DNA from: Methanococcoides methylutens
GTDB lineage: Archaea > Halobacteriota > Methanosarcinia > Methanosarcinales > Methanosarcinaceae
NCBI RefSeq assembly: GCF_000765475.1
Contig: NZ_JRHO01000014.1
Location: 513,687 to 577,686, forward strand
Direction of reading: 5' to 3'
Length of the DNA stretch: 64,000 bases
Position 1 is the stretch's first letter; the number at the start of each line of letters is the position of its first letter. The notes under the pieces are model-generated. The model saw nothing but the letters and a program-made list of their open reading frames with translations. It was not told where the DNA came from and searched no databases. Shown here piece by piece: positions 20,834 through 44,828 of this stretch. Both the position numbers and the translations under genes were made by a program.

Positions 20834-23689
20834 ATGAATACTAAAACATTAAAAAACATCATAAAACTAGCAATTGTGTTGACATGCATAGTAACAATGT
20901 CATCTAATGTAATAGCTACAGACTGGACAAAGTTCCATGCAGACCCATATAATACAGGAGTTACACCCGACAAAGCACCCATTGATAAAGATCTACTGAC
21001 CTTATGGGATGTTTCGACGGCATCTTCAGCAATGGCAGGCATTGATGCCGAACCTGTAATAGTAGGAGATACTATCTACGTGATAGGTGATAAGGGAACT
21101 TTACTAGCAATTGACAAGAACGATGGGACGGTTTTGTGGACAAGTAAAACAAACCATGGAAGCGATTCATGGTCACTTGGAGCCCCATGTTATGGAAATG
21201 GAAAAATTTTTGTTACAACTAATAATGGAATGATATATACATTTGATGCAGAAACAGGAGTAGAACTCTGGAATGATACTGCTATTAGCGACAATCCGAA
21301 TTTCACTCAGATGAATACGCCTGTTACCTATGAGAACGGAAGGATATACTTTGGAGGATGGCTTCCTTTTGGAGGTGCCAGCCAGTATTATTGCTACGAT
21401 GAGGATGGTACACGAATATGGAATAGAGAATCCACCAGTGGCGGATACTACCGTGCAGGATGCGTAATATTAGGAGATCATCTTATTTTCGGCGATGAAA
21501 ACGCAAATTTGACATCAGTCTATAAATCAAATGGCACAACTGTTGATGAACTTGATGTATCTGCAGAGTTCAACATCGATGCACTAAGAATCAGATCTGC
21601 AGTTACATATGATGAAGATTCGGAGAGGATATATGCAGCTACAGAAGGTGGTTATTGTGTAGCTCTGGGAATGAACGAAGATGGAACATTCAACAGGTCA
21701 GACAAACTTCTTAGTGCACAGGTAGCTAATAAGTTCACTACAACTCCTGCAATATACAACGGAAGATTATATGTTGGCACAGGAGATAGTTATACAGATG
21801 GAACCTTTTACTGTCTTGATGCATCAGACCTGACCGAAATATGGTCATTCTATATACCTGAAGGAGGAGTTCAGGGATCAGCAGCTATCTCAACATATTA
21901 TGATGACGGAGATGGTGAGGTATATGTTTATTTTACAGTGAATGATTATAACTGTAAACTTTATTGTCTTAAAGACTGGCCAAGTAATATGGAAATGCTT
22001 TCTGAAGAATGGTATTTCCAGCCAGAAGAAGAAAAACTACAATTCTCACTCCCAGGTCCGATAATCTCAGAAGGATCAGTATATTTTGCAAATGATGCAG
22101 GATATCTATTTGGAATATCTGAAAAGGAAGGAAACCCTTCAATTGAACCTGTCATGGAAGATGAATGGCACCAGTTCCAAAAGGATGCACAACACACAGG
22201 ATTTACAAATTCTGATGCACCAGATACCAATACACTACTATGGGAAAGCATTGATATCGATGCAACAACTGCGTCTTCACCAGTAGTCGCCGATGGAAAG
22301 CTATATATCAATTGTGCGGACTGGGTGAAGATTCTTGATATGTATACCGGAGAATATTTAGGAGCTACACAAGTTCCAGGAAATAATCTTTTGGATTCAT
22401 GGACACCTGTATCATACAATGAAGGAAGGGTATGGTGCGGTCATTCTCGAGGCATAAATGGTGGTACATTGATAGCTAATGGAAAATATTACCATGGAGA
22501 CTATGAGGGCAATAAATATTATTGCTATGATGAAAGCAATGATGTAGAGCTATGGAGTTTTACAGTCGAAGGAATGGCACAGAGTACGCCGGCATATAGT
22601 GATGGAAATATCTACCTGACAGGCTGCGTATATGAAAACGGCGGAAACGTCTATTGTGTAGATGCTGAAACCGGAAATCAAGTATGGAGCATTGAAGTCG
22701 CCAATGATCCCTGCGGAAGTTTTAGTGTACAAGGAGACATAGCATACTTTACTACATATAACTGGTACACTAGTGGCGATATTTATGCATTGGATAAGAA
22801 CACCGGGGAAATTCTCTGGACAAAAGTGATACAGAGAACAGATGCTGTCCCAACCATTGCATATGGTAACGTTTACGTATCATCAGGTTGCTATTCAGTT
22901 TCCGAATTGCAAACGTATTGTTTCAATGCGACTACCGGTGAAGAGATATGGAATGTTACTGGTGTTGGAGATTGGAAATGTTCAGCTGTGGTCGCTGATG
23001 GAAAGGTCTTCGTAGGAAAACCTGATTCATTCTATACATACGCATCCATGTACGCTCTAAATGCATTTGATGGAACAGAAATGTGGCATTATGGAAGAGG
23101 AGGATCAGCAGCTGCCATATCAGATGGCATTGTGTTTACGGTCGGGAGATCTGGAAAAGTCTATGCCTATGCTGAAACAGCACCGGATCTCGAAACGTCA
23201 GCCATTGTACAATCACAGGTATCTGCCGGACAATCAAATGATATAACTGTGCAGATCGCAAACCATGGTAACGTGGATGCAGGTTCTTTTGAAGTCACCA
23301 TGCTAGTCGATGGTGTCACATTGGATACAAGAACAGTAACATCCCTTTCAAAGGCTTCAAACACAGAAGTCACTTTTGAATGGACGCCTGAAGCCGAAGG
23401 AGAGTATGAACTGCAGGTAGCTATGGACACACAGAATAGCATCGATGAAAGGGATGAAGCCAATAATTACTTCATCTCAACTGCTACGACTGCTATCGAA
23501 GACTGGAACCCGTGGAACGATCCTGATTCTGAAGGGTTACCTGATGGAACATACATTACTTTAACAGAAGTAATCGATGCGTACAACTGTTTCAGAAATG
23601 GAGAGCCTGCACCAGAAACTGGAGCTAGTATCGACCTCACGAGAGTGATAGATCTCTACAATGCATTCAGATACACAACAGCTATGTGA
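20834..23689 (+). CDS. Secreted double PQQ-type beta-propeller protein with CARDB and dockerin-like module
   Basis: 951 residues from the ATG at 20834, preceded by GGTGG; a GTG nine bases upstream is also in frame. Signal peptide 1-28 (cut near NVIA/TDW). Two propeller regions each begin with a W-F-D-NTG-AP opening (DWTKFHADPYNTGVT near 29; EWHQFQKDAQHTG near 443) and contain many GE(I/L)W blade motifs. Residues 782-885 form a CARDB-like domain. The last 62 residues (890-951) are the shared dockerin-like module. No PQQ-enzyme catalytic residues were recognised, so it is probably a binding or scaffold protein. It has a strong terminator and its own upstream region. Confidence 0.88.
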   Translation: MNTKTLKNIIKLAIVLTCIVTMSSNVIATDWTKFHADPYNTGVTPDKAPIDKDLLTLWDVSTASSAMAGIDAEPVIVGDTIYVIGDKGTLLAIDKNDGTVLWTSKTNHGSDSWSLGAPCYGNGKIFVTTNNGMIYTFDAETGVELWNDTAISDNPNFTQMNTPVTYENGRIYFGGWLPFGGASQYYCYDEDGTRIWNRESTSGGYYRAGCVILGDHLIFGDENANLTSVYKSNGTTVDELDVSAEFNIDALRIRSAVTYDEDSERIYAATEGGYCVALGMNEDGTFNRSDKLLSAQVANKFTTTPAIYNGRLYVGTGDSYTDGTFYCLDASDLTEIWSFYIPEGGVQGSAAISTYYDDGDGEVYVYFTVNDYNCKLYCLKDWPSNMEMLSEEWYFQPEEEKLQFSLPGPIISEGSVYFANDAGYLFGISEKEGNPSIEPVMEDEWHQFQKDAQHTGFTNSDAPDTNTLLWESIDIDATTASSPVVADGKLYINCADWVKILDMYTGEYLGATQVPGNNLLDSWTPVSYNEGRVWCGHSRGINGGTLIANGKYYHGDYEGNKYYCYDESNDVELWSFTVEGMAQSTPAYSDGNIYLTGCVYENGGNVYCVDAETGNQVWSIEVANDPCGSFSVQGDIAYFTTYNWYTSGDIYALDKNTGEILWTKVIQRTDAVPTIAYGNVYVSSGCYSVSELQTYCFNATTGEEIWNVTGVGDWKCSAVVADGKVFVGKPDSFYTYASMYALNAFDGTEMWHYGRGGSAAAISDGIVFTVGRSGKVYAYAETAPDLETSAIVQSQVSAGQSNDITVQIANHGNVDAGSFEVTMLVDGVTLDTRTVTSLSKASNTEVTFEWTPEAEGEYELQVAMDTQNSIDERDEANNYFISTATTAIEDWNPWNDPDSEGLPDGTYITLTEVIDAYNCFRNGEPAPETGASIDLTRVIDLYNAFRYTTAM
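23501..23689 (+). repeat. 189-bp dockerin-like module, copy 1
   Basis: Encodes the last 62 residues and stop. Variable positions here: RNGEPAPETG, IDLTRVIDLY and the end TTAM. Confidence 0.9.
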
Positions 23690-23708
23690 TAACGAAAGCA
23701 AAGTTTGG

Positions 23709-23752
23709 AAATAAGGCATGGTTACAAAGCCATCCTTATTTCTCTTTTTTAT
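23709..23752 (+). terminator. Terminator after the first propeller gene
   Basis: AAATAAGGCATGG and CCATCCTTATTT form a 12-pair stem with one bulge and an 8-base loop, followed by CTCTTTTTT. Confidence 0.75.
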
Positions 23753-23888
23753 TTCTAAGAAATGTCATCAGGAAATTTAGTATCAGTTCTTATTTTTTAG
23801 TTATAATTAAGAGATAGATCAATTTAATCAAAATGGCATCCAGTAATATGATGTTACCATGTAAGATAATAGATAATATCTTAAAAGC

Positions 23889-23903
23889 AACCTTTTTATA
23901 GGG
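23889..23903 (+). promoter_or_regulatory. Promoter of the BtuFCD-type operon
   Basis: CCTTTTTATAGGG at 23891-23903 is a TATA-like element about 50 bases before the start at 23947. No known riboswitch fold was recognised in the leader. Confidence 0.45.
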
Positions 23904-23946
23904 ATGTGTCGATTGATTGTAAGTTTAAGAAAATAGAGGGAAAATA

Positions 23947-24972
23947 ATGTTCAAAGGTTGTTATGTCTTATTTTTGATCCTTATACTAATATCGACTTCA
24001 TGCGCAAGTGCAGTAGAAGCCAGTATGACAGAATATCCACTTACGATAGTGGATAATATGAATAATACTATTACAATAGAAACCAAACCTGAAAGGATAT
24101 TGTCCACGATGCCAAGCAACACAGAGATCCTTTTTGCTGTCGGTGCCGGGGACAATGTTGTTGGAGGCACGATCCATGATGAGTATCCACCTGAAGCTGT
24201 AAATATCTCGAAGGTAGGAGGATATACCAATCTTGACTTTGAGGCAATCGTCAACCTTGAACCTGATGTCGTGTTTGCTTCTGAAGCAAACGGTGAAGAT
24301 GCTACCAATATGCTGAAGGACCTGGGATTCACTGTGATAATCCTGGAACCAAAAACTATCGATGACATCATGAGCAACATAGAACTTATAGGAGAAGTGA
24401 CTGGAAATAAAGAAACAGCACTCTCTGTCACCGATGACATGAAAGCACAAATGGATGCCATCACGAGCAAAACAGAAGATGTGCCTACTGAGGAACGTCC
24501 TCGTGTACTTTATCTGATATGGCACGATCCAATGTACTCTGCCGGACTTGATTCATATCCTGATGACCTCATAGCAATGGCTGGAGGAAACAATATACAG
24601 AAAGCTGAAGGATGGCCTGTTATCAATCTTGAAGATGTCATCGCCAGCAATCCACAGATCATAATCTGTTCCGGAATGGGAGGTGGATCGTACACAATAA
24701 TGGAATCGATCAAGAATAACGATGCTCTGGTTCAGACAGATGCCATAAAGAATAACAAAGTTTACCCTATCGAGGACCCCAGCATCATCGAGATCCCTGG
24801 CCCGAGGATCGTGGAAGGACTAAAAGAATTGCACGGATACATTGGACCTGAAATCAAGGTCAATGAAGAGGAAACGGGTGAGGAAGCACCAGTGAACAAC
24901 ACGCCCGGATTTGGTGTTCTGGCCGCATCCTGTATGTTGGTGGCAGGCTACCTTAGGGCAAAGCGTTCCTGA
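23947..24972 (+). CDS. BtuF/FecB-type solute-binding protein with PGF-CTERM anchor
   Basis: 341 residues. Signal peptide 1-23, then the periplasmic-binding fold typical of cobalamin, heme and iron-chelate receptors (KPERILSTMPSNTEILFAVGAG; LEPDVVFASEANG; AEGWPVINLEDVIASNPQIII). The C-terminus has a linker, then TPGFGVLAASCMLVAG and the basic AKRS, a PGF-CTERM signal for archaeosortase processing and lipid anchoring, so the receptor is tethered outside the membrane. GAGGG precedes the ATG. Permease and ATPase genes follow. In a methylotrophic methanogen corrinoids are a likely substrate, but iron chelates fit equally by sequence. Confidence 0.88.
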   Translation: MFKGCYVLFLILILISTSCASAVEASMTEYPLTIVDNMNNTITIETKPERILSTMPSNTEILFAVGAGDNVVGGTIHDEYPPEAVNISKVGGYTNLDFEAIVNLEPDVVFASEANGEDATNMLKDLGFTVIILEPKTIDDIMSNIELIGEVTGNKETALSVTDDMKAQMDAITSKTEDVPTEERPRVLYLIWHDPMYSAGLDSYPDDLIAMAGGNNIQKAEGWPVINLEDVIASNPQIIICSGMGGGSYTIMESIKNNDALVQTDAIKNNKVYPIEDPSIIEIPGPRIVEGLKELHGYIGPEIKVNEEETGEEAPVNNTPGFGVLAASCMLVAGYLRAKRS

Positions 24973-25001
24973 ATATAAATACGGAATAGGAAAAGGTAAA
25001 G

Positions 25002-26027
25002 ATGGCAAGAGATGGAAGAACTGTAATGGTCCTGCTGTCAGTGTTGCTGGTAGCCATGATCGCCAGCAATACTGCAATAGGTAGCAGCGACATTTCCCCT
25101 ATTGACACCGTAAAGATAATTGTTAATGCCATTGCTGAAAAATTAACGCTCGAAGATATCCTGTCTTTCGAGAAAGTATGGACCGATAGCCAGGGAACCA
25201 TCATAATGAACATCCGACTACCAAGGGTCCTCCTTGGAGCATTAGTGGGTGCAGCACTGGCAACTGCCGGATGTGCCATGCAGGGTTTGCTTAAGAATCC
25301 CATGGCAGACCCTTATATAATAGGAATGTCATCCGGCGCCGGTCTTGGCGCAGCTCTTGCTTTTGCACTGATGTTACCCTTGCAGCTCCTTGCTTTTGTG
25401 ACAGCAGCTGGATCCATATTCATAGTATACAATATATCGAGGATCGGAGAAAGAGTGCCTACAGAAACACTTTTGCTTGCAGGAATTGCTGTCGGATTCT
25501 TTCTTTCATCAGTGACATCGTTCATCATTTTTCTGTCCCAGTCACCCCACCAGATAATATACTGGTTGATGGGAGGACTATGGACTGCCAGCTGGAATAA
25601 AGTGAAGATCACATTCCTGATGATACTGGTGGGAATTTTCATGCTCTACAGGCAATCATGGAACCTGAATGTCATGCTCCTTGGTGAGGAACAGGCACAG
25701 TGCATGGGAGTGGATATAGAGAAAGTAAAACGTAGCGTACTTGTATTCTCATCACTTGTTACCGCAGCTGCTGTATCTGTTAGTGGGATCATCGGTTTTG
25801 TGGGACTTATCATACCACATATTATGAGGATCATCGTAGGACCTGATCATCGGATACTCATTCCCACATCAACCCTCATGGGCGCAATCTTCCTCGTATT
25901 TTCAGACACTATTGCAAGAACGATACTCGAATCTACCGACCTGCCTGTAGGAGTAGTGACCGCATTTTTCGGAGCTCCTTTCTTCATTTACCTATTAAGG
26001 AAGAGGAGGAAGACGATCTATGCTTGA
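25002..26027 (+). CDS. BtuC/FecCD-type ABC transporter permease
   Basis: 341 residues, the normal length with about ten membrane helices. Family motifs include RLPRVLLGALVGAALATAGCAMQG near 69-92, the coupling segment LKNPMADPYIIG, and FVGLIIPHIMR near 265-275. It imports vitamin B12, heme or iron chelates with the adjacent receptor and ATPase. It is 29 bases after the receptor gene and overlaps the ATPase gene by 8 bases. AAGGT lies before the ATG. Confidence 0.93.
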   Translation: MARDGRTVMVLLSVLLVAMIASNTAIGSSDISPIDTVKIIVNAIAEKLTLEDILSFEKVWTDSQGTIIMNIRLPRVLLGALVGAALATAGCAMQGLLKNPMADPYIIGMSSGAGLGAALAFALMLPLQLLAFVTAAGSIFIVYNISRIGERVPTETLLLAGIAVGFFLSSVTSFIIFLSQSPHQIIYWLMGGLWTASWNKVKITFLMILVGIFMLYRQSWNLNVMLLGEEQAQCMGVDIEKVKRSVLVFSSLVTAAAVSVSGIIGFVGLIIPHIMRIIVGPDHRILIPTSTLMGAIFLVFSDTIARTILESTDLPVGVVTAFFGAPFFIYLLRKRRKTIYA

Positions 26028-26799
26028 GATCAAAGATCTTAATGTGAGCTATGGCAGCCGAAAGATACTGGAAGACATAAATATCTCTGCTGAAAAAGGC
26101 GAGTTCCTGGGCATACTTGGGCCAAACGGGTCCGGCAAGACAACGTTGGTCAAAGCCATAACCAAAGTTATCAAACCCGATTCAGGAGACATAACATTTA
26201 ACGGAAGATCTATTCAACATATGAATGGCACAGAAATTGCCAGACATATAGCAGTGGTCTCACAGGTGATCTCTATCAATTTCGAGTTCGCTGTAAAGGA
26301 TATCGTTATGATGGGACGCACACCCTACATACATGGTAATGAATCACCCGAAGACTTTGACATCGTTGAAGAATCCATGGAGAAAACTAAAACCGATTTC
26401 CTGAAGGATAGGCTTGTCACACAGCTGAGTGGCGGTGAACTGCAACGTGTCATCATAGCAAGGGCTCTTGCACAGCAAACAGATATCCTGCTTCTCGATG
26501 AACCTACATCACATCTTGATATCACGAACCAGATCGATATACTGAACCTTGTCAAAGATGAATCAAGAAAGGGAAAGCTTGTAGTTGCAGTGGTACATGA
26601 CCTGAACCTTGCAGCATATTACTGTGATAAGATAGCCCTCATAAGGGATGGGAAACTTGTATCGCTGGGCACACCAGCAGAAGTGCTCACCCCGGAAACT
26701 ATTGGAAAAGTATACAATTTGCCTGTAGAGGTTGTCACCAATGAGATCACAAATTCCCTGTATGTGATACCAAAGCTTGAGCCTTTGCCACATCCTTGA
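26020..26799 (+). CDS. BtuD/FecE-type ABC transporter ATPase
   Basis: 259 residues. Walker A GPNGSGKTT near 35-43, signature LSGGELQRV near 137-145, Walker B LLLDEPTSHLD near 156-166 and the H-loop VVHDLNLAA near 189. Cytosolic energising subunit of the importer. It overlaps the permease by 8 bases and the operon ends at a bidirectional terminator shared with the convergent surface-protein gene. Confidence 0.95.
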   Translation: MLEIKDLNVSYGSRKILEDINISAEKGEFLGILGPNGSGKTTLVKAITKVIKPDSGDITFNGRSIQHMNGTEIARHIAVVSQVISINFEFAVKDIVMMGRTPYIHGNESPEDFDIVEESMEKTKTDFLKDRLVTQLSGGELQRVIIARALAQQTDILLLDEPTSHLDITNQIDILNLVKDESRKGKLVVAVVHDLNLAAYYCDKIALIRDGKLVSLGTPAEVLTPETIGKVYNLPVEVVTNEITNSLYVIPKLEPLPHP

Positions 26800-26823
26800 A
26801 CTCTCATATTTAACAATAAAAAC

Positions 26824-26853
26824 AGGGGCTAGCACCCCTTTCCAAAATTTTTA
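26824..26853. terminator. Bidirectional terminator after the ABC transporter operon
   Basis: AGGGG and CCCCT arms around CTAGCA, followed by TTTTTATTTTT on the + strand and GTTTTTATTG on the minus strand; it serves both converging units. Confidence 0.6.
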
Positions 26854-26856
26854 TTT

Positions 26857-27633
26857 TTAAGTTTTTTGTTGTCTTTTTGCCATATAAACAGACATCAGCA
26901 CTCCGCTGACTGCTAATATCATTTCAAAACCAGGGACCTTTGGTTCAGACTCTTGGTTTTCAGAATCCTGAGATTCAGTATCATCTACAGGCTGTACCAC
27001 CGAATTATCCTCAGCGATCACATTTTCTATAACAATTTTACTTTCATTCCCTTCAGAAATTACCCCCGTTTCCTGCTCCACATCAGATACTTGTGGATTT
27101 ATTGAAGAAGAACTGCCAGAGAATGTATTGTCCGGGATACCAGTCGTTTTAGTAAGTGAAGAGGAAGCAGCAATAACAGTAAGTTGCGTATCACCAACAC
27201 CATTGTAACCAGCACTATTACTGCTATCCAAGTATCGACCTGCAAGATCATATACACCGACAACAGTGCCTGCACCTACATTGAGATCATATTTTACAGT
27301 ATAATCGCTTGCAGGAAGTGCTCCACTCATGAAATTGCGTGAAAAGTAGTGAATACCATTAGAATTTTGATGAGTATCCAGTTCTGGAGGACATTCTACA
27401 TTAGATACTGTCCAATCAGCCATTTCTGTTGCACTGTAATCTTCTACAAGTGCGTTTAAGCTTTCTTCATTCACATAATTTGTCAACTCAAGTGTTACAT
27501 GAACAGTTTCACCCGGACTCACCATTGTATCGCTCAAAGTTCTTGTCATTATAGGATCTGCAGCGGCAGGAGATAAAATTGTGACCAGCAGCATAAGTAT
27601 ACATATTACAAATTTGAATGTGTTTTTATTCAT
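26857..27633 (-). CDS. PGF-CTERM surface protein, short paralogue
   Basis: 258 residues. Signal peptide 1-25 (PAAADP cut region). Residues 26-165 form a beta-rich domain of unknown function that is closely similar to the N-terminal domain of the larger protein encoded just upstream on the same strand (shared TRTLSDT, VTLELTNYVNEE, SNVECPPELD, DTQLTV). A Ser/Glu-rich linker follows, then VPGFEMILAVSGVLMSVYMA and KRQQKT, a PGF-CTERM anchor. Extracellular, probably lipid-anchored. It looks like a duplication that lost, or never had, the PKD and DUF4430-like part. Confidence 0.8.
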   Translation of the reverse strand: MNKNTFKFVICILMLLVTILSPAAADPIMTRTLSDTMVSPGETVHVTLELTNYVNEESLNALVEDYSATEMADWTVSNVECPPELDTHQNSNGIHYFSRNFMSGALPASDYTVKYDLNVGAGTVVGVYDLAGRYLDSSNSAGYNGVGDTQLTVIAASSSLTKTTGIPDNTFSGSSSSINPQVSDVEQETGVISEGNESKIVIENVIAEDNSVVQPVDDTESQDSENQESEPKVPGFEMILAVSGVLMSVYMAKRQQKT

Positions 27634-27874
27634 AGTTTACTCCGTTGTTATTTTGTTTGTTATTATTTTGTACAAGATAGGAAAGAAACAGAACCAAACG
27701 CGCACCTTTAATTACAACATATAGAAGATGTGTAGAAAATATCTGACTTATACACATTTCCAGACCGGGAAAAATAACAAACTCCTTCCTATCAGGAATG
27801 GTTTTTCAGACATACAAATAAAAGGCAAATGAAATATATCGATAATAGCCCATGCCAAAATGATATTATCTAAA

Positions 27875-27903
27875 TTAAAAAAGAAAGGGATAAACATCCC
27901 TTT
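27875..27903 (-). terminator. Terminator of the large PGF-CTERM gene
   Basis: AAAGGGAT and ATCCCTTT with a 4-base loop; on the minus strand the hairpin is followed by CTTTTTTAA. The rest of 27634-27972 is A/T-rich spacer with the promoter of the short paralogue. Confidence 0.7.
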
Positions 27904-27972
27904 CAGAACGTTTCATGGAAATTAGTCCATTTGCACATAAACAGACAGCAGTTCCTCTGATTTTTAAGTCTT

Positions 27973-29982
27973 TTAATGTCTCTTAGCCAGATATACGGAC
28001 ATCAACAATCCGATCACAGCAAAGATCATTTCAAAACCAGGAGTATTCGGATCAGATTCCTGCTGTGCAGGTTCCTGATATTCGCCATCACCCTGTGAAT
28101 CGGAATCATCTGCATCCGGTTCTGAAGAGTCGCCATCATTGCCATTGTCTTCAACAATTACATCTGGGTCTTGCTCCTCCACAGGAGGTAATGGTGTCTC
28201 AGTGGAAGATATAATTCGAGCAGATCCTGTGCCACTACCTCCACCACCACGGGTTGACGTCTTTTCAACTACTTCAATCGTTACAACATACCTTTGGTCA
28301 AGCATGTTTGGTTCCCACATTTCACCGGTGTAAGAGGAATAGACGTATTCCAGAACATCGCTTTCATTAAGGGAATTGCTTCCAAATGAACCAGCCAATT
28401 CACCGTTGAGCCAGATAGACCAACCAGAGCTTGTTTCAGGTTCATTAGAGAAATCATTTGCAATATCGTCTATTGAATTAAGGAAATTGCCAGTTGCATT
28501 GTAATCAAGACCAGTTGCATTGAGTGCATCCATGTCATTCATATCTGAGATCAGGTAGATCTGATCATTGAATAATTCAACAGGAGGTGCAACATTAGCA
28601 GTGATTGTTACAACATACCTCTGGTCAAGCATGTTTGGTTCCCACAGATCCCCGGTATAAGAGGAATAGACGAATTCTACAACATCACTTTCATTAAGGG
28701 AATTGCTTCCAAATGAACCAGCCAGTTCACCGTTGAGCCAGATAGACCAACCTACACTCTCTTCAGGGGTAGTGCCATAAGATGCTACAATACCATCGAT
28801 AGTGTCAATGAAACCACCCGGTGCATTGTAATCAAGACCAGTTGCATTGAGTGCATTCATGTCATTCATGTCTGAATAGGAAAGGTAGACTGAATCATTG
28901 AATAATTCAACAGCAGGTATAATATTGACATTGATCGTTACAACATACTGCTGATCTATCATGTTTGGTCCCATCATATCATCCATACCAATAAGGATGA
29001 ATTCTACGGTATCGCCATCAGCAAGTGCTTGTGATCCAAAACCAAACAGATCATTAACCTGCACTCCGTTGATAAACGTATACCAGTTAGATCCGGTACC
29101 AGGGCCTGCAAAATTCTCGTACAGATGTCCATCAACACTAGTAAGCTGACTACCAGACACAATGTAGTCAAGTCCTGTTGCGTTGAGTGCAGCTCCATCG
29201 TTCATATCTGCATAGTAAAGGGATACTTCACCATCGTAAAGAACGATTGGAACGTTTGTAACAGTGATCAAATCTGTTTTTGTAACACTGTCTTCACCAA
29301 AATCATTGCTGATGTTCAAAGAAACAGTGTAGATCCCCTGAGTACTAAATATATGTTCCGGACTTTGTTCAGTTGAATCAACCAAACCATCGTTGTCAAA
29401 GTCCCATTCCCATGCCTCAGCATTAATTGAGTTGTCTGTGAATTGAACAGTCAGAGGTATTGAACCCGATATTACGTCTGATTCAAAGTCAGCTACAGGA
29501 AGAGGAATGTTAACAGTAAGCTGGGTGTCACCAACAGCAGGCCCGTATCCAGCAGAGTTGCCGCTGTCCTTATATGTGCCGATTAGGTCATATGTGCCAG
29601 TTTCAGTGTCTGCATCTACAGTGAGGTCATATTCTACAGTGTAATCCCCAACTGGCATCGCTCCACTCATCAAATCACGTGAGAAGTAGTGAACACCACT
29701 AGTGTTTATGTAGGCATCCAGTTCTGGAGGACATTCTACATTAGATAATGTCCAGCCAGCCATTTCTGTTGCACTGTAGTCTTCCATAAGTGCATTTAGA
29801 CCTTCTTCATTTACATAACCGGTCAATTCAAGTGTCACATGAACAGTATCCCCTGGAACTACTGTTGTATCACTCAATGTTCTTGTCATTACAGGGTCTG
29901 CAGCTGCAGGAGATGCTATAAGTGCAACTGAGATCAGCAACAGAAGTGCTAGAATTCCAGATTTGAATATATTTTTATTCAT
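27973..29982 (-). CDS. PGF-CTERM surface protein with PKD and three DUF4430-like repeats
   Basis: 669 residues. Signal peptide 1-28; residues 29-167 match the short paralogue's domain; 168-250 is a PKD domain (WEWDFDNDGLVDS). Three repeats of about 105 residues follow (251-570), each with an opening such as VELFNDSVYLSYSDMND, a W-IWLNGE core and D-VEF/EYVYSSYTG, resembling the transcobalamin-like DUF4430 fold. An acidic linker leads to TPGFEMIFAVIGLLMSVYLA and KRH, a PGF-CTERM anchor. The last two repeats are nearly identical, pointing to recent duplication. DUF4430 relatives and the adjacent BtuFCD-type importer make corrinoid capture a reasonable but unproven idea. Confidence 0.8.
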   Translation of the reverse strand: MNKNIFKSGILALLLLISVALIASPAAADPVMTRTLSDTTVVPGDTVHVTLELTGYVNEEGLNALMEDYSATEMAGWTLSNVECPPELDAYINTSGVHYFSRDLMSGAMPVGDYTVEYDLTVDADTETGTYDLIGTYKDSGNSAGYGPAVGDTQLTVNIPLPVADFESDVISGSIPLTVQFTDNSINAEAWEWDFDNDGLVDSTEQSPEHIFSTQGIYTVSLNISNDFGEDSVTKTDLITVTNVPIVLYDGEVSLYYADMNDGAALNATGLDYIVSGSQLTSVDGHLYENFAGPGTGSNWYTFINGVQVNDLFGFGSQALADGDTVEFILIGMDDMMGPNMIDQQYVVTINVNIIPAVELFNDSVYLSYSDMNDMNALNATGLDYNAPGGFIDTIDGIVASYGTTPEESVGWSIWLNGELAGSFGSNSLNESDVVEFVYSSYTGDLWEPNMLDQRYVVTITANVAPPVELFNDQIYLISDMNDMDALNATGLDYNATGNFLNSIDDIANDFSNEPETSSGWSIWLNGELAGSFGSNSLNESDVLEYVYSSYTGEMWEPNMLDQRYVVTIEVVEKTSTRGGGGSGTGSARIISSTETPLPPVEEQDPDVIVEDNGNDGDSSEPDADDSDSQGDGEYQEPAQQESDPNTPGFEMIFAVIGLLMSVYLAKRH

Positions 29983-30431
29983 CGTTTACTCCGTTGTTAT
30001 TTTTAATTAGTGTGTAACCGAATTACCGCATGCGAGAACAGCTCTTTGAAAGAAGCAATTGATTATTATGATTCCAGAAATCATGGCCAAGTATAAATGA
30101 CACATATTTGATTTTCCTGAAAATTTTAAAAGCCATCTTACCAAACAAACTACTAATTCTTGCATTAAAGTATCATTACATAAACTTATAATTATACAAT
30201 TATAGCAAAAAACTAAGTTTAAATAAGTAAAAAAGCTTTTTACCATATTGTAAATACCATACAATTGTAATCTAATATAAACGTATCTTTTGAAGTAGCA
30301 GATATTATCTTAAAAGATAAAGGTAATAGAACATTCGCGTACAGATTACATATTCAGGGTAGATAAAAGAAAAATACAACACAAAAGAGTTGGCAGCACA
30401 TCCATTATGATTGAAAAGATGAGATGAAAAG
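29983..30431. other. 449-bp A/T-rich intergenic region between divergent surface genes
   Basis: No open frame of note. It should carry the promoters of both the PGF-CTERM gene (minus) and the propeller gene (plus); AATTATACAATTATAG around 30190 and several TATA-like runs are present, but no single promoter stands out. Confidence 0.5.
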
Positions 30432-31952: not shown

Positions 31953-31970
31953 GATAGGCAATGAAAGCAT

Positions 31971-34224: not shown

Positions 34225-34251
34225 CATAGATAAAAAATACAGAATGGAATA

Positions 34252-34288
34252 AAGGATAGTAAGGCAACTATCCTTGTTTTTTATTTTT
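34252..34288 (+). terminator. Terminator after third propeller gene
   Basis: AAGGATAGT and ACTATCCTT around AAGGCA, then GTTTTTTATTTTT. Confidence 0.75.
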
Positions 34289-34306
34289 AAAATGTGGTGG
34301 TAAATA

Positions 34307-36900: not shown

Positions 36901-39900
36901 ATGAATCAATTAAAAAAACCCAACACGGTAAAAATTTTTGTTGGGATGTTGCTTGTAATGTTATTAATACCAGCAGCATCTGCAACGGATTGGAGTTCTT
37001 TTCAAGAGGACAACTACAATAAAGGATTGACATCAGACAAAGCTCCTATAACCGATCCATATGGAAACGGCATCTCATGGGAGAGCTCGTATACACTCGG
37101 AAGCTCATGGTCAGGTTTCGATAATGCACCTCTGGTAATAGGTAACATTGTATACGTGGCCGGTGACGATAACAGGTTACGGGCACTGTACAAGACCAAC
37201 GGCACTGAAAAATGGGTGACCGCCACAAGCGGTGGCCGCGTGCTCGGAAACATGGCTGCAGGCAACGGCAGTATATTTGTTCCGACCAGCGATGGAAAGG
37301 TGTACGCTATCGATATGAACACAGGTGTTGAGCAGTGGCGGGCAATTGAATCAGGTCAACTGATCACTCCTGTGGTCTATGAAGACAATAAGATATACTT
37401 CGGTAGCTGGGAAAGCAAGAAATATTATTGCTACCACGACAACGGAACAATGTGTTGGAACCGCACTTCTACCAGTGGGGACGGTTACTACTGGGCAGGT
37501 GCTGCGATAGTAGGCGATTACCTGATCTATGGAGACGATGCTGGCGTCCTAACTTCCGTGTATAAAGTTGATGGCACCACTAAGGACACGCTGGACGTAT
37601 CCACTGAATTTGGCGTCACGGCAAATCAGATCAGGTCATCCATCAATTATGTTGAGGATCTGGAACGCATATACTTCACATCCAAAGGCGGCTATATATA
37701 CGCTCTCGGTATGAATCCGGACGGAACCTTCAATACCGCTGACAAGGCTAATGCAAACATCGGTTACAGCACATCCACACCTGCTGTCTATAACGGCAAG
37801 GTGTATGTCGGTAGCAGCAGCTACTTTACCTGCCTTTTCGCAAACGATCTTACGATGGACTGGTGTTTTTCAGTAGATGGACAGATCCAGTCATCCCCTG
37901 TGATCAGTACGGCATACGATGACGGTGATGGCGAGATCTATATCTACTTCACCGAGAACTGGGGAGGAGTAGGCGTACACTGCCTCAACGAAAATGGAGT
38001 TGAGCAGTGGTCCTGGGGTCCGACTGCAAAGACGGAGTTTACCCTGGCCGGTGTGGCAATATCGGACGGCTGGATCTTCTTCGGCACCGATGCCGATTAT
38101 GTGTTCGGATTTGCAACAGATGAGTCACTGCGTGAACCCATAATGCTCAACCCGGGAGATTCCCTGCAGGAAGCGATCTATGGTGCAAACAACGGTGACA
38201 CCATCATGATGGCACCGGGTACCTACAGTGTCTCGTACATAAACAAGAGTGACCTGACCTTCATGGCTGACGGCGGTGAAGTTATCATAACAGGTGGCTC
38301 CAGCATTGCTTTTGGCCTGGCAGACGCAGATGATACTATAGGTTGCGATGCTTCAGGAATAACTTTCAACGGAATTACTTTTAGTGGTTTCAACATGTTA
38401 GTCAAAGACCTTGACTACCCGAAGCCCAATCAGATTGTTAACAATCTGACATATGATGGATGTACATTCTCTGGCAATGATTATTTGTATCTGTATGATG
38501 ACTCAGCTGTACTGGGTTGTACAGTCGATGATCTTGGTCTCAGGGTGTATGGAGACAATGTAAGATTTGAGGACAACATAGGTAGCGCTGGAAGCATAGG
38601 TGACGGGAAAACATGCTCTGGTTTAATCGTAAGGAACAACTCGATCAGTTCATTTGGTATATCCGTAACTTATTCAGAAATGTTAATGGAAGACAATGTT
38701 TTTGAGGCGATTTCGAGTCTTTCCTCCAATGAGGCGGCTATTATTCATGATAATGTGTTCGCCAACAGCAGTGAGTATTTAGATATGGGTGGGCAGGTTT
38801 ACGAGAATACATTTTTGAGTTGTACTATGCTTTCAGGTTCTTACTATACGTCTGGATCTTACTACCTCAATAACTTCATAGACTGCGGCACTATATATAT
38901 GTGTGATTGCGATACGAGTGCTGAAGATATTGGAATTTATAACACGTCCACACCAGTAACCTACACCTATGGCGGTGCAAGTTACACCGGCTATCTCGGC
39001 AACTACTACTCCGAGTATGCAGGCAGTGATGCCGATGGCGATGGCGTTGGTGATAATCCAGTCTCATCCACAAGTACTTTTAGTGAGACTAGCGGTGTTG
39101 ATTCCTATCCACTCATGGGTGCATGGGACGTCGCAACTGACACGATTGAAGAACCGGAAATAGTTCCACAGCCACCTGAAGCCCCCACAGCTTTAGAATG
39201 TTCAGGGGTTGACAGATGCGTATGTCTTAGCTGGGATACACCTGCAAGCGATGAAGCAATAACTTCATTCAATGTTTACAGGGCTACCATTTCAGGAGCA
39301 GAAACACTGTACGAAACAGTTTCTGCAGACACAACTGTATTCGCAGATCATGACGTTACCAACGATCAGACATACTACTATCAGGTAAGTGCTGTCAGCA
39401 GCATTGGAGAAGGAGATATTTCAACAGAGATCACCGGTACGCCTGTTGCAGAGGTTATCAGTGACAGCTGGGAACACTTCATGGGAGATCTGCAGCACAC
39501 AGGATACTCTACTACACCCGGACCTAAGACCAACAATACTATCTGGGAATCAGCAGACATCGATGCAGAAGATGGTGCATCAATCACTATTGCTGATGAT
39601 CTTGGGCTTATGTTCGTGATCAGTGATGCAAAGGAAAGTTCATGGTCCACTGACGGCTATAACAACCTTTCAGCCATCAACCTTGAAGATGGTTCAGTGG
39701 TATGGGATGTCACATTCGGAAATGGTGACAATTACAATTCCATGGATTCATGGTCCACTCCTGCCTACCACAACGGTATTGTATTCACAGCCGGTGATGG
39801 TGCAAGATATGCCAACAACGGTACCCTCAAATGGGGATCACTTCCAATGAACACTAACGGAGGTCCTCTTGTTGCTGAAGGCAAGGTCATTGTGGGCAAC

Positions 39901-41217
39901 TGGGACGGAAAACAGTACTTCTGCTTCGACGAGGAAACAGGAGCTGAGCTCTGGAATATCTCTGTGAATGGAAATGCACAGGGCACCCCTGTTTACAACG
40001 ACGGCCACATGATCCTTACCTCATACGAAGAGGTTAACTGCGTTGACATGGACGGTAATGTGCTATGGACCCAGGCAATTGCTCAAAGTGTCTGTGGTTC
40101 AGCAAGCATACAATATGATAATGTCTACATTACGATCTACGATATGAACTACGGTGCTCAGTACGTATATGCACTGGACGAGTCCACAGGTAATATCGTA
40201 TGGCAGGCAACCATGTCCAATCAGATGATGATGGGTACAGACTGCACACCAGCAGTTGCATATGGATATGTATATGTCACTGCCGGTATGGCTATGATCG
40301 ACCAGAACACCTACTGCTTCGATGCTTTCACAGGAGATAGCGTCTGGGCATCCAGTGAAACTGGATCCTGGTTCACATCACCTGTAGTCTCTGACGGTGT
40401 TGTATATGCAGGCGCAGAGGATTATTTCTCCGGTGCCGGTGGCATGGGATCCTTCACACGCACAGTTGCACTGGATGCATTTGATGGAAGCCTGATCTGG
40501 GAATCTGATGTTGGTGGTTCAACACCGGCACTCTATGATGGAGTACTCTATACAGTAGGCTTCCAGAAAGTGTATGCATTTGGACCAGGTCTTTCCCTGG
40601 TACCCGAAGATGCTTCCGTGATCAAGGGGCAGCAAACCCAGATCAGGATCATGGCAAGCGAATTCCCTGATGGTCTTTCCGGTTACAATCTGACCATCGA
40701 TATTGCCGATCCGGCTGTTGCCGAGATCGTAGATATTGATATTCCTGAATGGGCTACGCTCAATGATTCTTCTTCCATGCCCGGAGCTTCCGTTTTCCTG
40801 AGGGCTGTTGACAGTGGAAAAGGTGTTCAGGCAGGAGCACAGGATGTTGTACTTGCAACCCTTACGGTCTCAGGAAACAGCGTTGGTTCCACGGATCTTG
40901 TTCTTGGCGTTGAAAGGCTGGACGATGACAATGGTGATCATATCGATATGGTTCTTTCAGCAGGAACTCTTGAAGTTATTATGACACCGATACCGGGTGA
41001 GACCATGTCACCACAGGATCTTGACGGTGACGGATGCTATGAAGACCTGACCGGAAACGGCGATTGCAGTTTCGCGGATGTCGTGCTCTTCTTCCATGAG
41101 ATGGAGTGGATCGAGGCAAATATGCCTATGGGATACACTGATTTCAACGGAAACGGCAGGATCGACTTTGACGATGTCATAAAGCTGTTTGACATGGTGG
41201 GCCCTGTGGGACAATAA
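36901..41217 (+). CDS. Giant secreted protein: two propellers, beta-helix, Fn3, cohesin-like domain and canonical dockerin
   Basis: 1438 residues, the largest gene here. Signal peptide 1-28; first propeller 29-405 (DWSSFQEDNYNKGLT); right-handed beta-helix of the NosD/pectin-lyase type 410-735 (PGDSLQEAIYGANNGDTI); Fn3 domain 757-850; second propeller 855-1225 (SWEHFMGDLQHTGYS). The cohesin-like domain is 1231-1360 (FPDGLSGYNLTIDIADPAVAEI). A C-terminal pair of Ca-binding dockerin loops is 1371-1438 (DLDGDGCYEDLTGNGDCSFADV and DFNGNGRIDFDDVIKLF patterns). Unlike the other propeller proteins it lacks the 62-residue module. Cohesin plus dockerin in one chain is the design of an adaptor scaffold. 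Base composition is somewhat more G/C-rich than its neighbours. Confidence 0.85.
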   Translation: MNQLKKPNTVKIFVGMLLVMLLIPAASATDWSSFQEDNYNKGLTSDKAPITDPYGNGISWESSYTLGSSWSGFDNAPLVIGNIVYVAGDDNRLRALYKTNGTEKWVTATSGGRVLGNMAAGNGSIFVPTSDGKVYAIDMNTGVEQWRAIESGQLITPVVYEDNKIYFGSWESKKYYCYHDNGTMCWNRTSTSGDGYYWAGAAIVGDYLIYGDDAGVLTSVYKVDGTTKDTLDVSTEFGVTANQIRSSINYVEDLERIYFTSKGGYIYALGMNPDGTFNTADKANANIGYSTSTPAVYNGKVYVGSSSYFTCLFANDLTMDWCFSVDGQIQSSPVISTAYDDGDGEIYIYFTENWGGVGVHCLNENGVEQWSWGPTAKTEFTLAGVAISDGWIFFGTDADYVFGFATDESLREPIMLNPGDSLQEAIYGANNGDTIMMAPGTYSVSYINKSDLTFMADGGEVIITGGSSIAFGLADADDTIGCDASGITFNGITFSGFNMLVKDLDYPKPNQIVNNLTYDGCTFSGNDYLYLYDDSAVLGCTVDDLGLRVYGDNVRFEDNIGSAGSIGDGKTCSGLIVRNNSISSFGISVTYSEMLMEDNVFEAISSLSSNEAAIIHDNVFANSSEYLDMGGQVYENTFLSCTMLSGSYYTSGSYYLNNFIDCGTIYMCDCDTSAEDIGIYNTSTPVTYTYGGASYTGYLGNYYSEYAGSDADGDGVGDNPVSSTSTFSETSGVDSYPLMGAWDVATDTIEEPEIVPQPPEAPTALECSGVDRCVCLSWDTPASDEAITSFNVYRATISGAETLYETVSADTTVFADHDVTNDQTYYYQVSAVSSIGEGDISTEITGTPVAEVISDSWEHFMGDLQHTGYSTTPGPKTNNTIWESADIDAEDGASITIADDLGLMFVISDAKESSWSTDGYNNLSAINLEDGSVVWDVTFGNGDNYNSMDSWSTPAYHNGIVFTAGDGARYANNGTLKWGSLPMNTNGGPLVAEGKVIVGNWDGKQYFCFDEETGAELWNISVNGNAQGTPVYNDGHMILTSYEEVNCVDMDGNVLWTQAIAQSVCGSASIQYDNVYITIYDMNYGAQYVYALDESTGNIVWQATMSNQMMMGTDCTPAVAYGYVYVTAGMAMIDQNTYCFDAFTGDSVWASSETGSWFTSPVVSDGVVYAGAEDYFSGAGGMGSFTRTVALDAFDGSLIWESDVGGSTPALYDGVLYTVGFQKVYAFGPGLSLVPEDASVIKGQQTQIRIMASEFPDGLSGYNLTIDIADPAVAEIVDIDIPEWATLNDSSSMPGASVFLRAVDSGKGVQAGAQDVVLATLTVSGNSVGSTDLVLGVERLDDDNGDHIDMVLSAGTLEVIMTPIPGETMSPQDLDGDGCYEDLTGNGDCSFADVVLFFHEMEWIEANMPMGYTDFNGNGRIDFDDVIKLFDMVGPVGQ

Positions 41218-41279
41218 GATAAAAAAATGTAGAATAAGCAGTTGAAGAATAAAAAAAGAAGAGAAGTGAAAGAAGAGAT

Positions 41280-41332
41280 AAGGGAATGAAAATGAATATT
41301 ATTAAATTCCCTTTATTCCCTTCTTTCCATCT
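41280..41332 (+). terminator. Terminator after the giant scaffold gene
   Basis: AAGGGAAT and ATTCCCTT arms around an 18-base A/T loop, followed by TATTCCCTTCTTTCC. Long loop, so moderate support. Confidence 0.45.
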
Positions 41333-41403
41333 TCTTTTGTATTTTTTACAACTGTCACAGAAAGCATTTGATGATAAAATATAACGTATTTTAAGGTGAT
41401 ACA

Positions 41404-42213
41404 TTGAAAAATAGATATGGAATTATCGCATCGATTTTTTTAGTTTTTACCCTCATTTTTTCAACCGGTATCTGCATGGGGCTTGCAGGAGCATCTTCCT
41501 CCCTTGTTATCGAACCTTCAGACCAGATATCCCTTGAAGCAGGGGAAACCATGGAACTGTCCCTGAGTGTGGACGAGTTACCCGACGGGCTTATGGGCTA
41601 TTTTCTGACAGTGGAACTGGATGATCCTGACGTTGCCCGGATCGAGAACGTTGACTTCCCTGCATGGGCAAGCCCGAATGACATGTCAGAACTTCCCGAT
41701 TCCTCCGTGTGGCTGAAGGCAGCAGACCTTCAATTTGCCGTAGGAGAAGGAGCTAAAGACACTGAACTTGCAACCCTCACATTAAAGGGAATGGAGGGCG
41801 GCTCTACAGGGATTACGGTAACGATATCCAGGCTGGATGACGAGTCTGAAAACGCGATCATACTCGAAAAAGCGGAATATCCGGAAGAAGAGGAGGAAGA
41901 GGAAACCGGAGATGAAAATCCACCTGCTGATGAGAGTTTCGAATCTTCAAGATCCACAGATCAAAGGAGTAGTTCTAAGGTCGAAATATCGGAAGATGCA
42001 GAATCCGAAAATCCAGAAGAAAGTCAGGATGAAAACTCAGAAAATCAGGTGACGTCCCAAAACCCGGAAACAGAGTCAATTGAAAACGCAAATGTTGAAG
42101 TGGAAGATACCGGTGGAAATACACTCCCAGGGTTCGGATCTGCCCTTTCAGCATCAATTTTCGTGATCATGGGGATTGTCAGTAGAAGATCGACTAAACT
42201 CAGGAGAAAATAA
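41404..42213 (+). CDS. PGF-CTERM-anchored cohesin-like protein (anchoring scaffoldin candidate)
   Basis: 269 residues starting at TTG, supported by AGGTGAT three bases upstream and no suitable ATG. Signal peptide about 1-30; one cohesin-like domain about 33-155 (LPDGLMGYFLTVELDDPDVARI; SSVWLKAADL; ISRLDDESENAI); a long Glu/Ser/Asn-rich linker 158-240; then LPGFGSALSASIFVIMGIV and RRSTKLRRK, a PGF-CTERM anchor. This is the architecture of a bacterial anchoring scaffoldin, with archaeosortase lipid anchoring in place of SLH or sortase. It is followed 14 bases later by a propeller gene that also has a cohesin-like domain. Binding of the dockerin-like modules is inference. Confidence 0.82.
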   Translation: MKNRYGIIASIFLVFTLIFSTGICMGLAGASSSLVIEPSDQISLEAGETMELSLSVDELPDGLMGYFLTVELDDPDVARIENVDFPAWASPNDMSELPDSSVWLKAADLQFAVGEGAKDTELATLTLKGMEGGSTGITVTISRLDDESENAIILEKAEYPEEEEEEETGDENPPADESFESSRSTDQRSSSKVEISEDAESENPEESQDENSENQVTSQNPETESIENANVEVEDTGGNTLPGFGSALSASIFVIMGIVSRRSTKLRRK

Positions 42214-42227
42214 GTGGAGATAAATTC

Positions 42228-44828
42228 ATGGTAAAATTACAGAGAAAACAAACAGGAAAAAAGTTGACACCCGGCAGGTGGTCAGTAAAGGCTAGCATCA
42301 CAATCCTCTTGCTCCTGTTCTGTCTTGGAACCGGTATGGCTGCGGCTCAGGAGATCTACTTTGAACCCGGAGACACGACCCTTGCCGGGGTGGGCCAAAC
42401 AGAAGCACTGAACTTCTACCTTGACCAGTTACCTGCCGGGCTTTCCGGTTATAATCTCACCCTTGGCATAAGCGATCCTTCAGTTGCCAGAATAACAGGA
42501 GTCGAATTCCCTGACTGGTCAGGCACACTACATACGAACTCACAACTTCCAGCAAATTCAATTTGCATCAAAGCTATCGACCTGAACAAAAATGTGAATG
42601 CCGGAGATGCAAATATCCTACTGGGCACGGTGACCGTAGAATCCCTTGCTATTGGGGAAGGGAACATCACGGTATCGATCAACCGTCTGGAAGATGATAA
42701 CGGAAATACATTCCCCGTAGATATCAGGGAAGCAAAAATGTCAGTAATGGACACAGTCGTTGAGCCTAATGGAATACGAAGCATTGAGCCTAATTCTATT
42801 GAGCCGGAAAATGCCTTTACGGTGACTGTTGTACTCTCCGCAGGTGATACGGATGTCGAATCCATATTGCTGGAAGAAAAACTTCCGGATGGATGGACAG
42901 TAACACCTGTCCGGAATGACGGTATGAGTTACTCAATAACAGGTGATCTGCATACCTGGCATGAAACTTCGAATATACTTGAATCTGGAAGCAGTAAAAC
43001 AATAGTCTATGATGTTACCGTACCGGCTGAAACAAGTGGTGGGATCTATAATATTGATGGCTGGTTTTCCGCATATGAAGCGAATAAATTCCCATTGGTG
43101 TATCATCACAACGAAGTCAGCGGTGAAAACACAGTAGAGGTTATCGGCGAGCAGATATTCACTTCCACAGACTGGCCCCTGATCGGCAAAGGCCTGTACA
43201 ACAACGCAGTCACAAGCGACAGGGCACCGATACAGGAACCAAATGATTCAGGATCCTGGTCCACCATGACCCAAGGGGCAGGATTTTCCGGAATAGATGT
43301 ACACCCCCTTGTAGTTGGAGATCTGGTTTATGTGACAACACCGAGTTCCGTATTTGCAGTTGACAGGAACACAGGAGAGATCGAATGGCAAAATGATATT
43401 ATCGAAGGTGCCACCGCTCCTCTGGGAACCCCGGCTTATGGTAATGGGAAATTGTTTGTTACTGCTTTTAGTAAATTATATGCCTATGACGCCATATCAG
43501 GTAATGAGCTATTGAACGTTACTATTGATAGTGAAAACCAGGAATTTACACAGATGAATACTCCTGTTATGTATGAAGATGGCAGGATCTTCTTTGGTGA
43601 ATGGATCCCCTATGGCGAGTATAACCGCAAATACTATTGCTATAATGAAGACGGCACTCTGGAATGGACCTATGTTACTCCTACCGGCAAGGGCTATTAC
43701 TGGGCAGGTTCTGCGGTTGTAGGAAGGTATCTGGTCTTTGGGGACGATGCTCTCCACCTAACATCACTGGACAAATATGACGGAGAAGTTGTTGATGAAA
43801 TAAATGTTTCTGAATTATTGGAAATTGGATACAACGGTGAAAGGGAAGAGATCAGGAATTCCATAACATATAGTCCTGATACGGGACGTATATATTCTGC
43901 CTCCGAAGCTGGGTATTGCTTCTCCATTGGTTTTAATGTAGATGGTACATTCAATACAGCAGATGCTCAGAAATCCTATATAGGAAAAAGCACATGCACC
44001 CCAACTATTTACAATGGCAGAGTATATGTCGGCACAGGCACTCACACAGGAACCGGTGATGTATATTGCCTGAACGAAGAGGATCTCTCGGAAATCTGGA
44101 AGTACACTCCAAACGGTGGTGTACAGGGCTCTCCGGTAATATCAACTGCTTATGATGACGGAGATGGGGAAGTATACATCTACTTCACCACAAATGTCTT
44201 GGATGCAAGGGTCTATTGTCTAAAAGATTATACAGGCAATACTGTGCCTGAACTTCAATGGTATTACGAGGCCCCACCTGAAAAGAATGAATACACACTA
44301 CATGGTGTCACTATAAAGGACGGACGTATATTCTACGGCAATGATCGGGGTTATTTATTCGGGCTTTCCGATGTTGGAAACAATATAGTAACTCCGCCAG
44401 AAGCCAACTTCAGCTCTGATCTGGTTTCCGGATATGCACCGCAGACCGTCCAGTTCACCGACCTGTCCACAGATGCTGCAGGCTGGTCCTGGGATTTTGA
44501 CAACGACGGGATCGAGGATTCCATCGAGCAGAACCCACAGTTCACTTATACAGCTCCTGGAACATACACAGTGAGCCTCACCGTGAACAACGCAGCAGGT
44601 AGTGACACCGAGACCAAGATAGACTACATCGCTGTCAATGACTGGAACCCATGGAATGATCCTGATTCTGAAGGACTTCCAGATGGAACATACATCACTT
44701 TAACAGAGGTGATTGATGCATACAACTGTTTCAGATATGAAACACCTGTACCGGAATCTGGAACGAATATCGATTTTACAACTGTGATCGATATGTATAA
44801 TGCATTCAGATATGGAAATCCGATGTGA
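42228..44828 (+). CDS. Secreted protein: cohesin-like domain, propeller, PKD, dockerin-like module
   Basis: 866 residues, ATG preceded by GGAGAT. Signal peptide 1-41. The cohesin-like domain is 42-175 (LPAGLSGYNLTLGISDPSVARI). A beta-domain of the DUF11/NEW3 kind is about 178-310. The propeller is 315-715 (DWPLIGKGLYNNAVT; close to the first propeller of the giant protein), PKD 724-803 (WSWDFDNDGIEDS), dockerin-like module 805-866. With an interaction domain at each end it could link partners in a chain. Co-transcribed with the anchored cohesin-like gene 14 bases upstream. Confidence 0.86.
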   Translation: MVKLQRKQTGKKLTPGRWSVKASITILLLLFCLGTGMAAAQEIYFEPGDTTLAGVGQTEALNFYLDQLPAGLSGYNLTLGISDPSVARITGVEFPDWSGTLHTNSQLPANSICIKAIDLNKNVNAGDANILLGTVTVESLAIGEGNITVSINRLEDDNGNTFPVDIREAKMSVMDTVVEPNGIRSIEPNSIEPENAFTVTVVLSAGDTDVESILLEEKLPDGWTVTPVRNDGMSYSITGDLHTWHETSNILESGSSKTIVYDVTVPAETSGGIYNIDGWFSAYEANKFPLVYHHNEVSGENTVEVIGEQIFTSTDWPLIGKGLYNNAVTSDRAPIQEPNDSGSWSTMTQGAGFSGIDVHPLVVGDLVYVTTPSSVFAVDRNTGEIEWQNDIIEGATAPLGTPAYGNGKLFVTAFSKLYAYDAISGNELLNVTIDSENQEFTQMNTPVMYEDGRIFFGEWIPYGEYNRKYYCYNEDGTLEWTYVTPTGKGYYWAGSAVVGRYLVFGDDALHLTSLDKYDGEVVDEINVSELLEIGYNGEREEIRNSITYSPDTGRIYSASEAGYCFSIGFNVDGTFNTADAQKSYIGKSTCTPTIYNGRVYVGTGTHTGTGDVYCLNEEDLSEIWKYTPNGGVQGSPVISTAYDDGDGEVYIYFTTNVLDARVYCLKDYTGNTVPELQWYYEAPPEKNEYTLHGVTIKDGRIFYGNDRGYLFGLSDVGNNIVTPPEANFSSDLVSGYAPQTVQFTDLSTDAAGWSWDFDNDGIEDSIEQNPQFTYTAPGTYTVSLTVNNAAGSDTETKIDYIAVNDWNPWNDPDSEGLPDGTYITLTEVIDAYNCFRYETPVPESGTNIDFTTVIDMYNAFRYGNPM
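44640..44828 (+). repeat. 189-bp dockerin-like module, copy 5
   Basis: The most divergent copy: RYETPVPESGTNIDFTTVIDM and RYGNPM, while the first half is unchanged. Confidence 0.9.

Follow-up and report, generated by a model that had tools for sequence, protein, structure and literature searches.

In a 64,000-nucleotide stretch of Methanococcoides methylutens (the window), part of a genome of 2.51 Mb in 15 contigs (G000), three adjoining genes named P0006, P0007 and P0008 probably make up a surface docking cassette with a divergent archaeal cohesin-dockerin pair, alongside a further C-terminal module that appears to be a separate tag. Below, COH denotes the cohesin-like domain, DOC the EF-hand dockerin and MOD the 62-amino-acid C-terminal module. 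The evidence comprises a cohesin fold, an EF-hand dockerin sequence, COH-DOC fusion and co-occurrence, gene order, role-specific clades and the swapping of DOC for MOD, all of which were computed. The features of the cassette are:

36901..41217, + strand: P0006, the "payload", with signal peptide, PQQ-type propeller, NosD-like beta-helix, fn3, second propeller, COH and DOC
40585..40977, + strand: COH of P0006, aa 1229-1359 (predicted fold, hhalign)
41017..41199, + strand: DOC of P0006, aa 1373-1433, following COH after a 13-residue linker (loops by sequence; weak PF00404/EF-hand matches)
41236..41358, + strand: long imperfect inverted repeat in the P0006-P0007 gap (folding z -6.2)
41404..42213, + strand: P0007, the anchored cohesin, with signal peptide, COH, acidic stalk, LPGFG, hydrophobic tail and basic end
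41491..41889, + strand: COH of P0007, aa 30-162 (profile match; anchor clade of the tree)
42124..42210, + strand: PGF-CTERM-like membrane/sorting tail of P0007 (read from sequence)
42228..44828, + strand: P0008, the proposed adaptor, with signal peptide, COH, Ig-like domain (NEW3/DUF11-like), propeller, PKD and MOD
42342..42746, + strand: COH of P0008, aa 39-173 (profile match)
44640..44825, + strand: MOD of P0008 (sequence match)

A divergent cohesin and its probable dockerin

An initial annotation of this DNA had proposed three related cohesin-like domains and one protein that also carries dockerin loops, and both are present. The COH copies of P0006 and P0007 are 33-37% identical to that of P0008, and the family has no further copy in the whole source genome. 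AlphaFold2, run on nine single-domain sequences, gave a confident model (pLDDT 92, pTM 0.84), and a Foldseek search of the PDB with this model returned cohesins at every one of ranks 1-38 (E 1.5e-9 to 3e-5), including at rank 9 the Archaeoglobus fulgidus cohesin 2xdh (TM 0.77), an archaeal relative of known structure which we take to come from a binding pair. PDB sequence searches with single family members were uninformative. When a profile of 20 COH homologues was compared with one of 15 real PF00963 cohesins using hhalign, the probability was 95.2% (E 2.5e-8, 130 columns), while four unrelated beta domains used as controls (PKD, CARDB, DUF11-like and DUF4430) remained below 4%. The suggested link to PF00963 thus stands as homology but falls below the Pfam gathering score: a Pfam search matched PF00963 to none of P0006-P0008 at E<=1, weak matches occur in 3/20 family members (best 1.2e-4), and one COH anchor scores 20.8 against a cut-off of 24.1 bits. 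By fold and homology COH is a genuine divergent cohesin, and it is probably a dockerin-binding domain with DOC as its partner.

The DOC of P0006 has paired Ca-binding loops, DLTGNGDCSFAD and DFNGNGRIDFDD, read from the sequence, of which DFNGNGRIDFDD is a canonical loop. Within the DOC family, weak Dockerin_1 matches are found in 7/9 members and EF-hand matches in 8/9, and in a homologue from genome G006 the DOC directly behind the COH exceeds the PF00404 cut-off. Searching the PDB with the DOC profile placed dockerins (2y3n_B, 5lxv_B) among the matches, ranked below EF-hand proteins.

We surveyed 112 Methanosarcinaceae genomes by profile search for COH, DOC, MOD and PF00963. COH was found in 14 and DOC in 16; all 14 COH genomes hold DOC, and 96 of the 98 genomes without COH have none (Fisher 5e-16). 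The two domains are mostly fused in one protein, with a linker of 13-15 residues in 37/40 fused proteins, and DOC lies <=5 residues from the C-terminus in 56/56 proteins. Furthermore, in six genomes of the genus Methanosarcina a gene ending in DOC adjoins a gene starting with COH (L108-L111, L113, L114). Copy numbers of COH and DOC are correlated both over 31 genomes (Spearman 0.81) and within the COH genomes alone (0.59). As judged from these sequence comparisons, the plug for these COH sockets is almost certainly the DOC of P0006 and not MOD.

Cohesins are also more widespread in archaea than the isolated pairs to which the initial annotation had referred, and the statement that such pairs occur is sound but understated: PF00963 cohesins occur in 68/112 Methanosarcinaceae genomes, and up to ~80 cohesin domains per ANME-1 metagenome have been published (PMC5244752). 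Profile matches to COH were detected in 106/393 sampled genomes of the phylum, the weaker of which may include ordinary cohesins. The source genome itself holds, elsewhere, three ordinary PF00963 cohesins (C14:98799-99885) and a PF00404 dockerin (C10:17492), possibly a second docking system.

The cassette, its probable anchor and a proposed assembly

The triplet order of a COH-DOC payload, an anchored COH and an N-terminal-COH protein recurs in G000, in G021 (a congener, read as Methanococcoides seepicolus), in G080 and twice in G074 (5,751,492 bases), which we take to be M. acetivorans C2A; the arrangement is thus shared by Methanococcoides and Methanosarcina, while G059 and G061 have the payload and anchor pair. 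In a tree of 64 COH sequences, in which the label "anchor" also covers a small number of short or truncated P0008-type proteins, anchors from three genera fall into one group (support 99/99) and proteins of the P0008 type into another (100/98). COHs therefore cluster by role across genera, so the roles must have separated before the genera did.

The C-terminal part of P0007 consists of a stalk that is acidic and rich in Ser/Glu, followed by LPGFG, a hydrophobic segment and RRSTKLRRK, and the role-equivalent anchors of G059 and G061 contain the PGF-pre-PGF domain TIGR04213 (scores of 181 and 187 bits, cut-off 28). The claim of PGF-CTERM anchoring accordingly holds for the motif seen by eye and for the relatives' anchors, while no model matched P0007 itself; a membrane anchor of PGF type is probable for this protein.

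In the assembly that we propose, P0007 would be the base, a membrane-anchored cohesin, and the secreted payload P0006, with its two propellers and beta-helix, would insert its C-terminal DOC into the COH of P0007, presumably in a calcium-dependent manner. The COH of P0006 itself, 13 residues before its DOC, would be left free for a further DOC, so that copies could stack head-to-tail, as the architecture suggests; docking in cis is less likely, given the short COH-DOC linker. P0008 would serve as an adaptor, its N-terminal COH taking the DOC of P0006, and since it carries both COH and MOD it could couple the cohesin-dockerin chain to MOD proteins.

Several observations weigh against this assembly. 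The DOC of P0006 reaches 15.9 bits against a PF00404 cut-off of 22.9, and the PGF-CTERM models PF18204 and TIGR04126 gave no match on P0007. Fusion in a single open reading frame accounts for much of the COH-DOC co-occurrence, and the ordinary PF00963 cohesins encoded outside the cassette might serve as partners instead. The source genome also has one DOC of this family for three COHs, which means that stacking would be mostly of P0006 on P0006. An anchored modular display system, as originally put forward, is the best reading of the locus.

Among 38 gene ends of the window, the inverted repeat between P0006 and P0007 gives the strongest hairpin; it is single copy in the genome and may be a stem-loop that marks a 3' end or serves in processing. 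Relatives have hairpins in this gap too, with z values of -4.0, -3.0, -2.7, -1.6, -0.3 and -0.1, so only some exceed chance, and consensus folding across relatives gave weak covariation because of poor alignment. Sub-threshold Rfam matches at 41236-41358 were discarded, as they reflect the inverted repeat and not those RNAs. In the clostridial cip-cel operon, stem-loops placed in this way set the stoichiometry of the cellulosome (PMC4423207), and by analogy the gap hairpin might set the payload:anchor ratio, which we regard as a lead only.

In G074 the system comprises 30 COH and 26 DOC, distributed over two cassettes and ~24 COH-DOC payloads of ~1000-4000 aa, which contain PKD, LRR, NosD, DUF3344, CARDB and propeller domains. 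Its two short COH anchor genes are at 2155.6 kb and 5268.3 kb of C1. The payload and cassette loci (L123-L140) lie at:

C1, 0.99-1.00 Mb
C1, 2.11-2.16 Mb
C1, 4.55-4.57 Mb
C1, 5.22-5.31 Mb
C1, 5.65-5.66 Mb

These payloads are mostly invisible to Pfam PF00963/PF00404, and M. acetivorans appears with 2 cohesin and 5 dockerin domains in a published InterPro table, taking the column order from its legend (PMC5244752). Standard domain annotation misses this COH/DOC family.

Like the non-cellulosomal pair of A. fulgidus (2xdh), the cassette is archaeal and non-cellulolytic and has the cohesin fold. A. fulgidus has one cohesin and dockerin protein beside a cohesin protein, whereas here the cohesins belong to a divergent clade that falls short of the Pfam thresholds, an anchored cohesin is present as a protein of its own, the payloads are large propeller proteins, the adaptor is fused to a further module, and in one genome the payloads have expanded to ~24. 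The networks of anaerobic methanotrophic archaea (ANME) likewise consist of many extracellular cohesin/dockerin proteins without cellulases and are thought to be surface-building; however, their scaffoldins have up to 5 cohesins (PMC9012536, PMC5244752), while here mostly one COH is fused to one DOC, in methanogens and in a conserved three-gene cassette. With the bacterial cellulosome (PF00963, PF00404) the system shares the cohesin fold, an EF-hand dockerin, a surface anchor and modular payloads. It differs in its PGF-type anchoring, in a payload that itself bears a cohesin-dockerin tandem, and in lacking both glycoside hydrolases and a long multi-cohesin scaffoldin: each window protein has one COH and the relatives examined at most two, and a domain search found no glycoside hydrolase payloads in the window or among the payloads of relatives.

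Neighbouring genes and alternative readings

The remaining genes of the cluster and its surroundings are:

Left of the cluster: Type IV pilus genes (gene context)
20825..23689, + strand: P0001, with two propellers, CARDB and MOD at 23501-23686
23947..26799, + strand: BtuFCD/FecBCD-type ABC importer, its binding protein with a PGF-type C-terminal tail; an associated locus outside the docking claim
26857..29982, - strand: P0013 and P0002, two PGF-CTERM surface proteins with an Ig-like N-domain, P0002 also with PKD and DUF4430
30432..31952, + strand: P0003, with propeller and MOD at 31764-31949
32269..34224, + strand: P0004, with propeller and MOD at 34036-34221
34307..36040, + strand: P0005, with propeller, PKD and MOD at 35852-36037
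44938-47751, right of the cluster: two tandem ADP-dependent phosphofructokinase/glucokinase genes, 447 and 486 aa (gene context)

The six secreted propeller proteins reported earlier were recovered: all match PF13360 (PQQ/BamB-type; E 4e-19 to 1e-53) and start with a signal-like N-terminal sequence. A domain library search found no glycosidase families among the window proteins, in agreement with the earlier account, from which the importer and P0013/P0002 were absent. The tandem ADP-dependent sugar kinase genes beside the cluster are kept in the congeners G024 and G021.

Two views of what the cassette is for are compatible with docking. Adhesion or envelope display (aggregation, biofilm or partner contact) through large interchangeable payloads has not far short of an even chance of being correct. 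The payloads are long, up to ~4000 aa, and are built from PKD, LRR, beta-helix and propeller domains, the cluster varies within the genus (COH in 2/11 and MOD in 4/11 genomes) and archaeal pilus genes flank it, set against which this role is read from architecture only. Less likely, with perhaps a modest chance at best, is the capture of a ligand such as a corrinoid, haem or metal chelate by propellers acting as surface binders, which would feed the BtuFCD-type importer. The importer, with its PGF-tailed binding protein and a DUF4430 surface protein, lies within the cluster and also accompanies the MOD clusters of G021 and G024; ANME dockerins also occur on ABC binding proteins (PMC9012536). 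Bacteroides BtuG/BtuH offer a parallel, being surface propeller and PKD proteins near a BtuFCD importer that bind B12 (PMC8941943), although the present system is archaeal and a ligand role is only conjectured. However, the importer is absent from the MOD/COH clusters examined in other genera, an Rfam search of the window found no cobalamin riboswitch, and payloads elsewhere are LRR, NosD, PKD or protease proteins and not binders of one ligand. The neighbouring importer therefore suggests ligand capture in Methanococcoides only, and cobamide uptake as the function of the locus was rejected on the missing riboswitch and the restriction of importer linkage to this genus.

Against docking itself, COH could be a structural Ig/jelly-roll spacer that no longer binds dockerins, with DOC as a Ca-stabilised cap in cis. 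The constant COH-DOC adjacency and short linker could represent such a fixed structural unit, and COH is mostly single copy per protein. We consider this improbable, since short anchors and N-terminal adaptors beside DOC genes retain COH by itself, DOC and COH lie on separate adjoining genes in the six Methanosarcina-genus genomes, and the COH clades are role-specific; binding has moreover been reported for an archaeal cohesin-dockerin pair (PMC9012536).

The 62-residue C-terminal module

MOD has five copies in the source genome, all on propeller proteins of the interval, and the earlier description of one shared module on five propellers was correct (79-87% identity to the P0001 copy). It is an internal duplication of a two-helix module, whose repeat halves match at 97%, is predicted as two helices (pLDDT 84) and forms the extreme C-terminus in 76/83 proteins. 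A scan of viral contigs found no relative of MOD. In G059, two MOD-containing frames (C2:701661-701828 and 693356-693520) are each read through one TGA, which could reflect a sequencing error, a pseudogene or recoding.

The initial annotation had the five propellers plugging into cohesins through MOD, and this part did not survive. MOD was rejected as the COH partner on its distribution, on profile comparison and on an orthologue of P0008 in G024. It occurs in 26 genomes, 16 of which lack COH; G060 has 13 MODs and 0 COH, and in G005, which has six MODs, COH and PF00963 cohesins are both missing. The MOD-COH copy-number Spearman is 0.03 over the 31 genomes, against 0.81 for COH-DOC, and 0.53 within the COH genomes. 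Against dockerin profiles, hhalign gave MOD probabilities of 0.17% and 0.26%, no dockerin match was found among 32 MOD members, and Ca-loop-like segments number at most one: the first loop is partly EF-like, while the second repeat (PETGASIDLTR) lacks D/N Ca ligands. Finally, the G024 orthologue is 71% identical over 540 aa and has the Ig-like domain, propeller and MOD without COH; its genome holds no COH or DOC of these families, and importer and kinase genes flank the locus as they do in the source genome. That MOD is the dockerin for the cohesins of P0006, P0007 and P0008 is thus very improbable, despite its duplicated two-helix build and extreme C-terminal position, which are like those of dockerins, a top PDB fold match that is a dockerin chain without being significant (5g5d_B, E 2.9), and its interchange with DOC on one protease family. 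Because the G024 orthologue has MOD without COH, it appears either that COH was grafted onto an older propeller-MOD protein or that it was lost from the G024 orthologue.

The protease family consists of secreted C1 (papain-like) enzymes that also have a PF18560 lectin-like domain. DOC is the last domain of some members and MOD that of others, the two kinds are 46-51% identical elsewhere, and G081 holds both. The swapped copies are:

L113:6395-8191 (G081)
L090:9140-11344 (G081)
L108, L110, L073 and L074

Given this swap, the best reading of MOD is that it is a separate C-terminal tag, the second such tag for docking or retention, which takes the place of the dockerin on payloads. The PGF-anchored Ig-like proteins P0002/P0013 are a candidate MOD receptor; their Ig-like N-domain family is weakly similar to cohesins (hhalign 54%, 45 columns) and occurs in 48/112 genomes, so widely that its co-occurrence with MOD is uninformative.

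Taken as a whole, this may be a large and so far overlooked methanogen surface system in which interchangeable payloads of up to ~4000 aa with a COH-DOC tandem polymerise head-to-tail from an anchored cohesin, while MOD, as an orthogonal docking module, supplies that surface as well and adaptors such as P0008 connect the two, a picture that we offer tentatively and with some doubt. M. acetivorans is genetically tractable, and its assembly is therefore directly testable. If the docking model is true, a single short anchored cohesin together with a single type of dockerin would account for how dozens of payloads are displayed, and the attachment of many large archaeal surface proteins would become testable, while the exchange of DOC for MOD may provide a route to a new archaeal docking or sorting tag.

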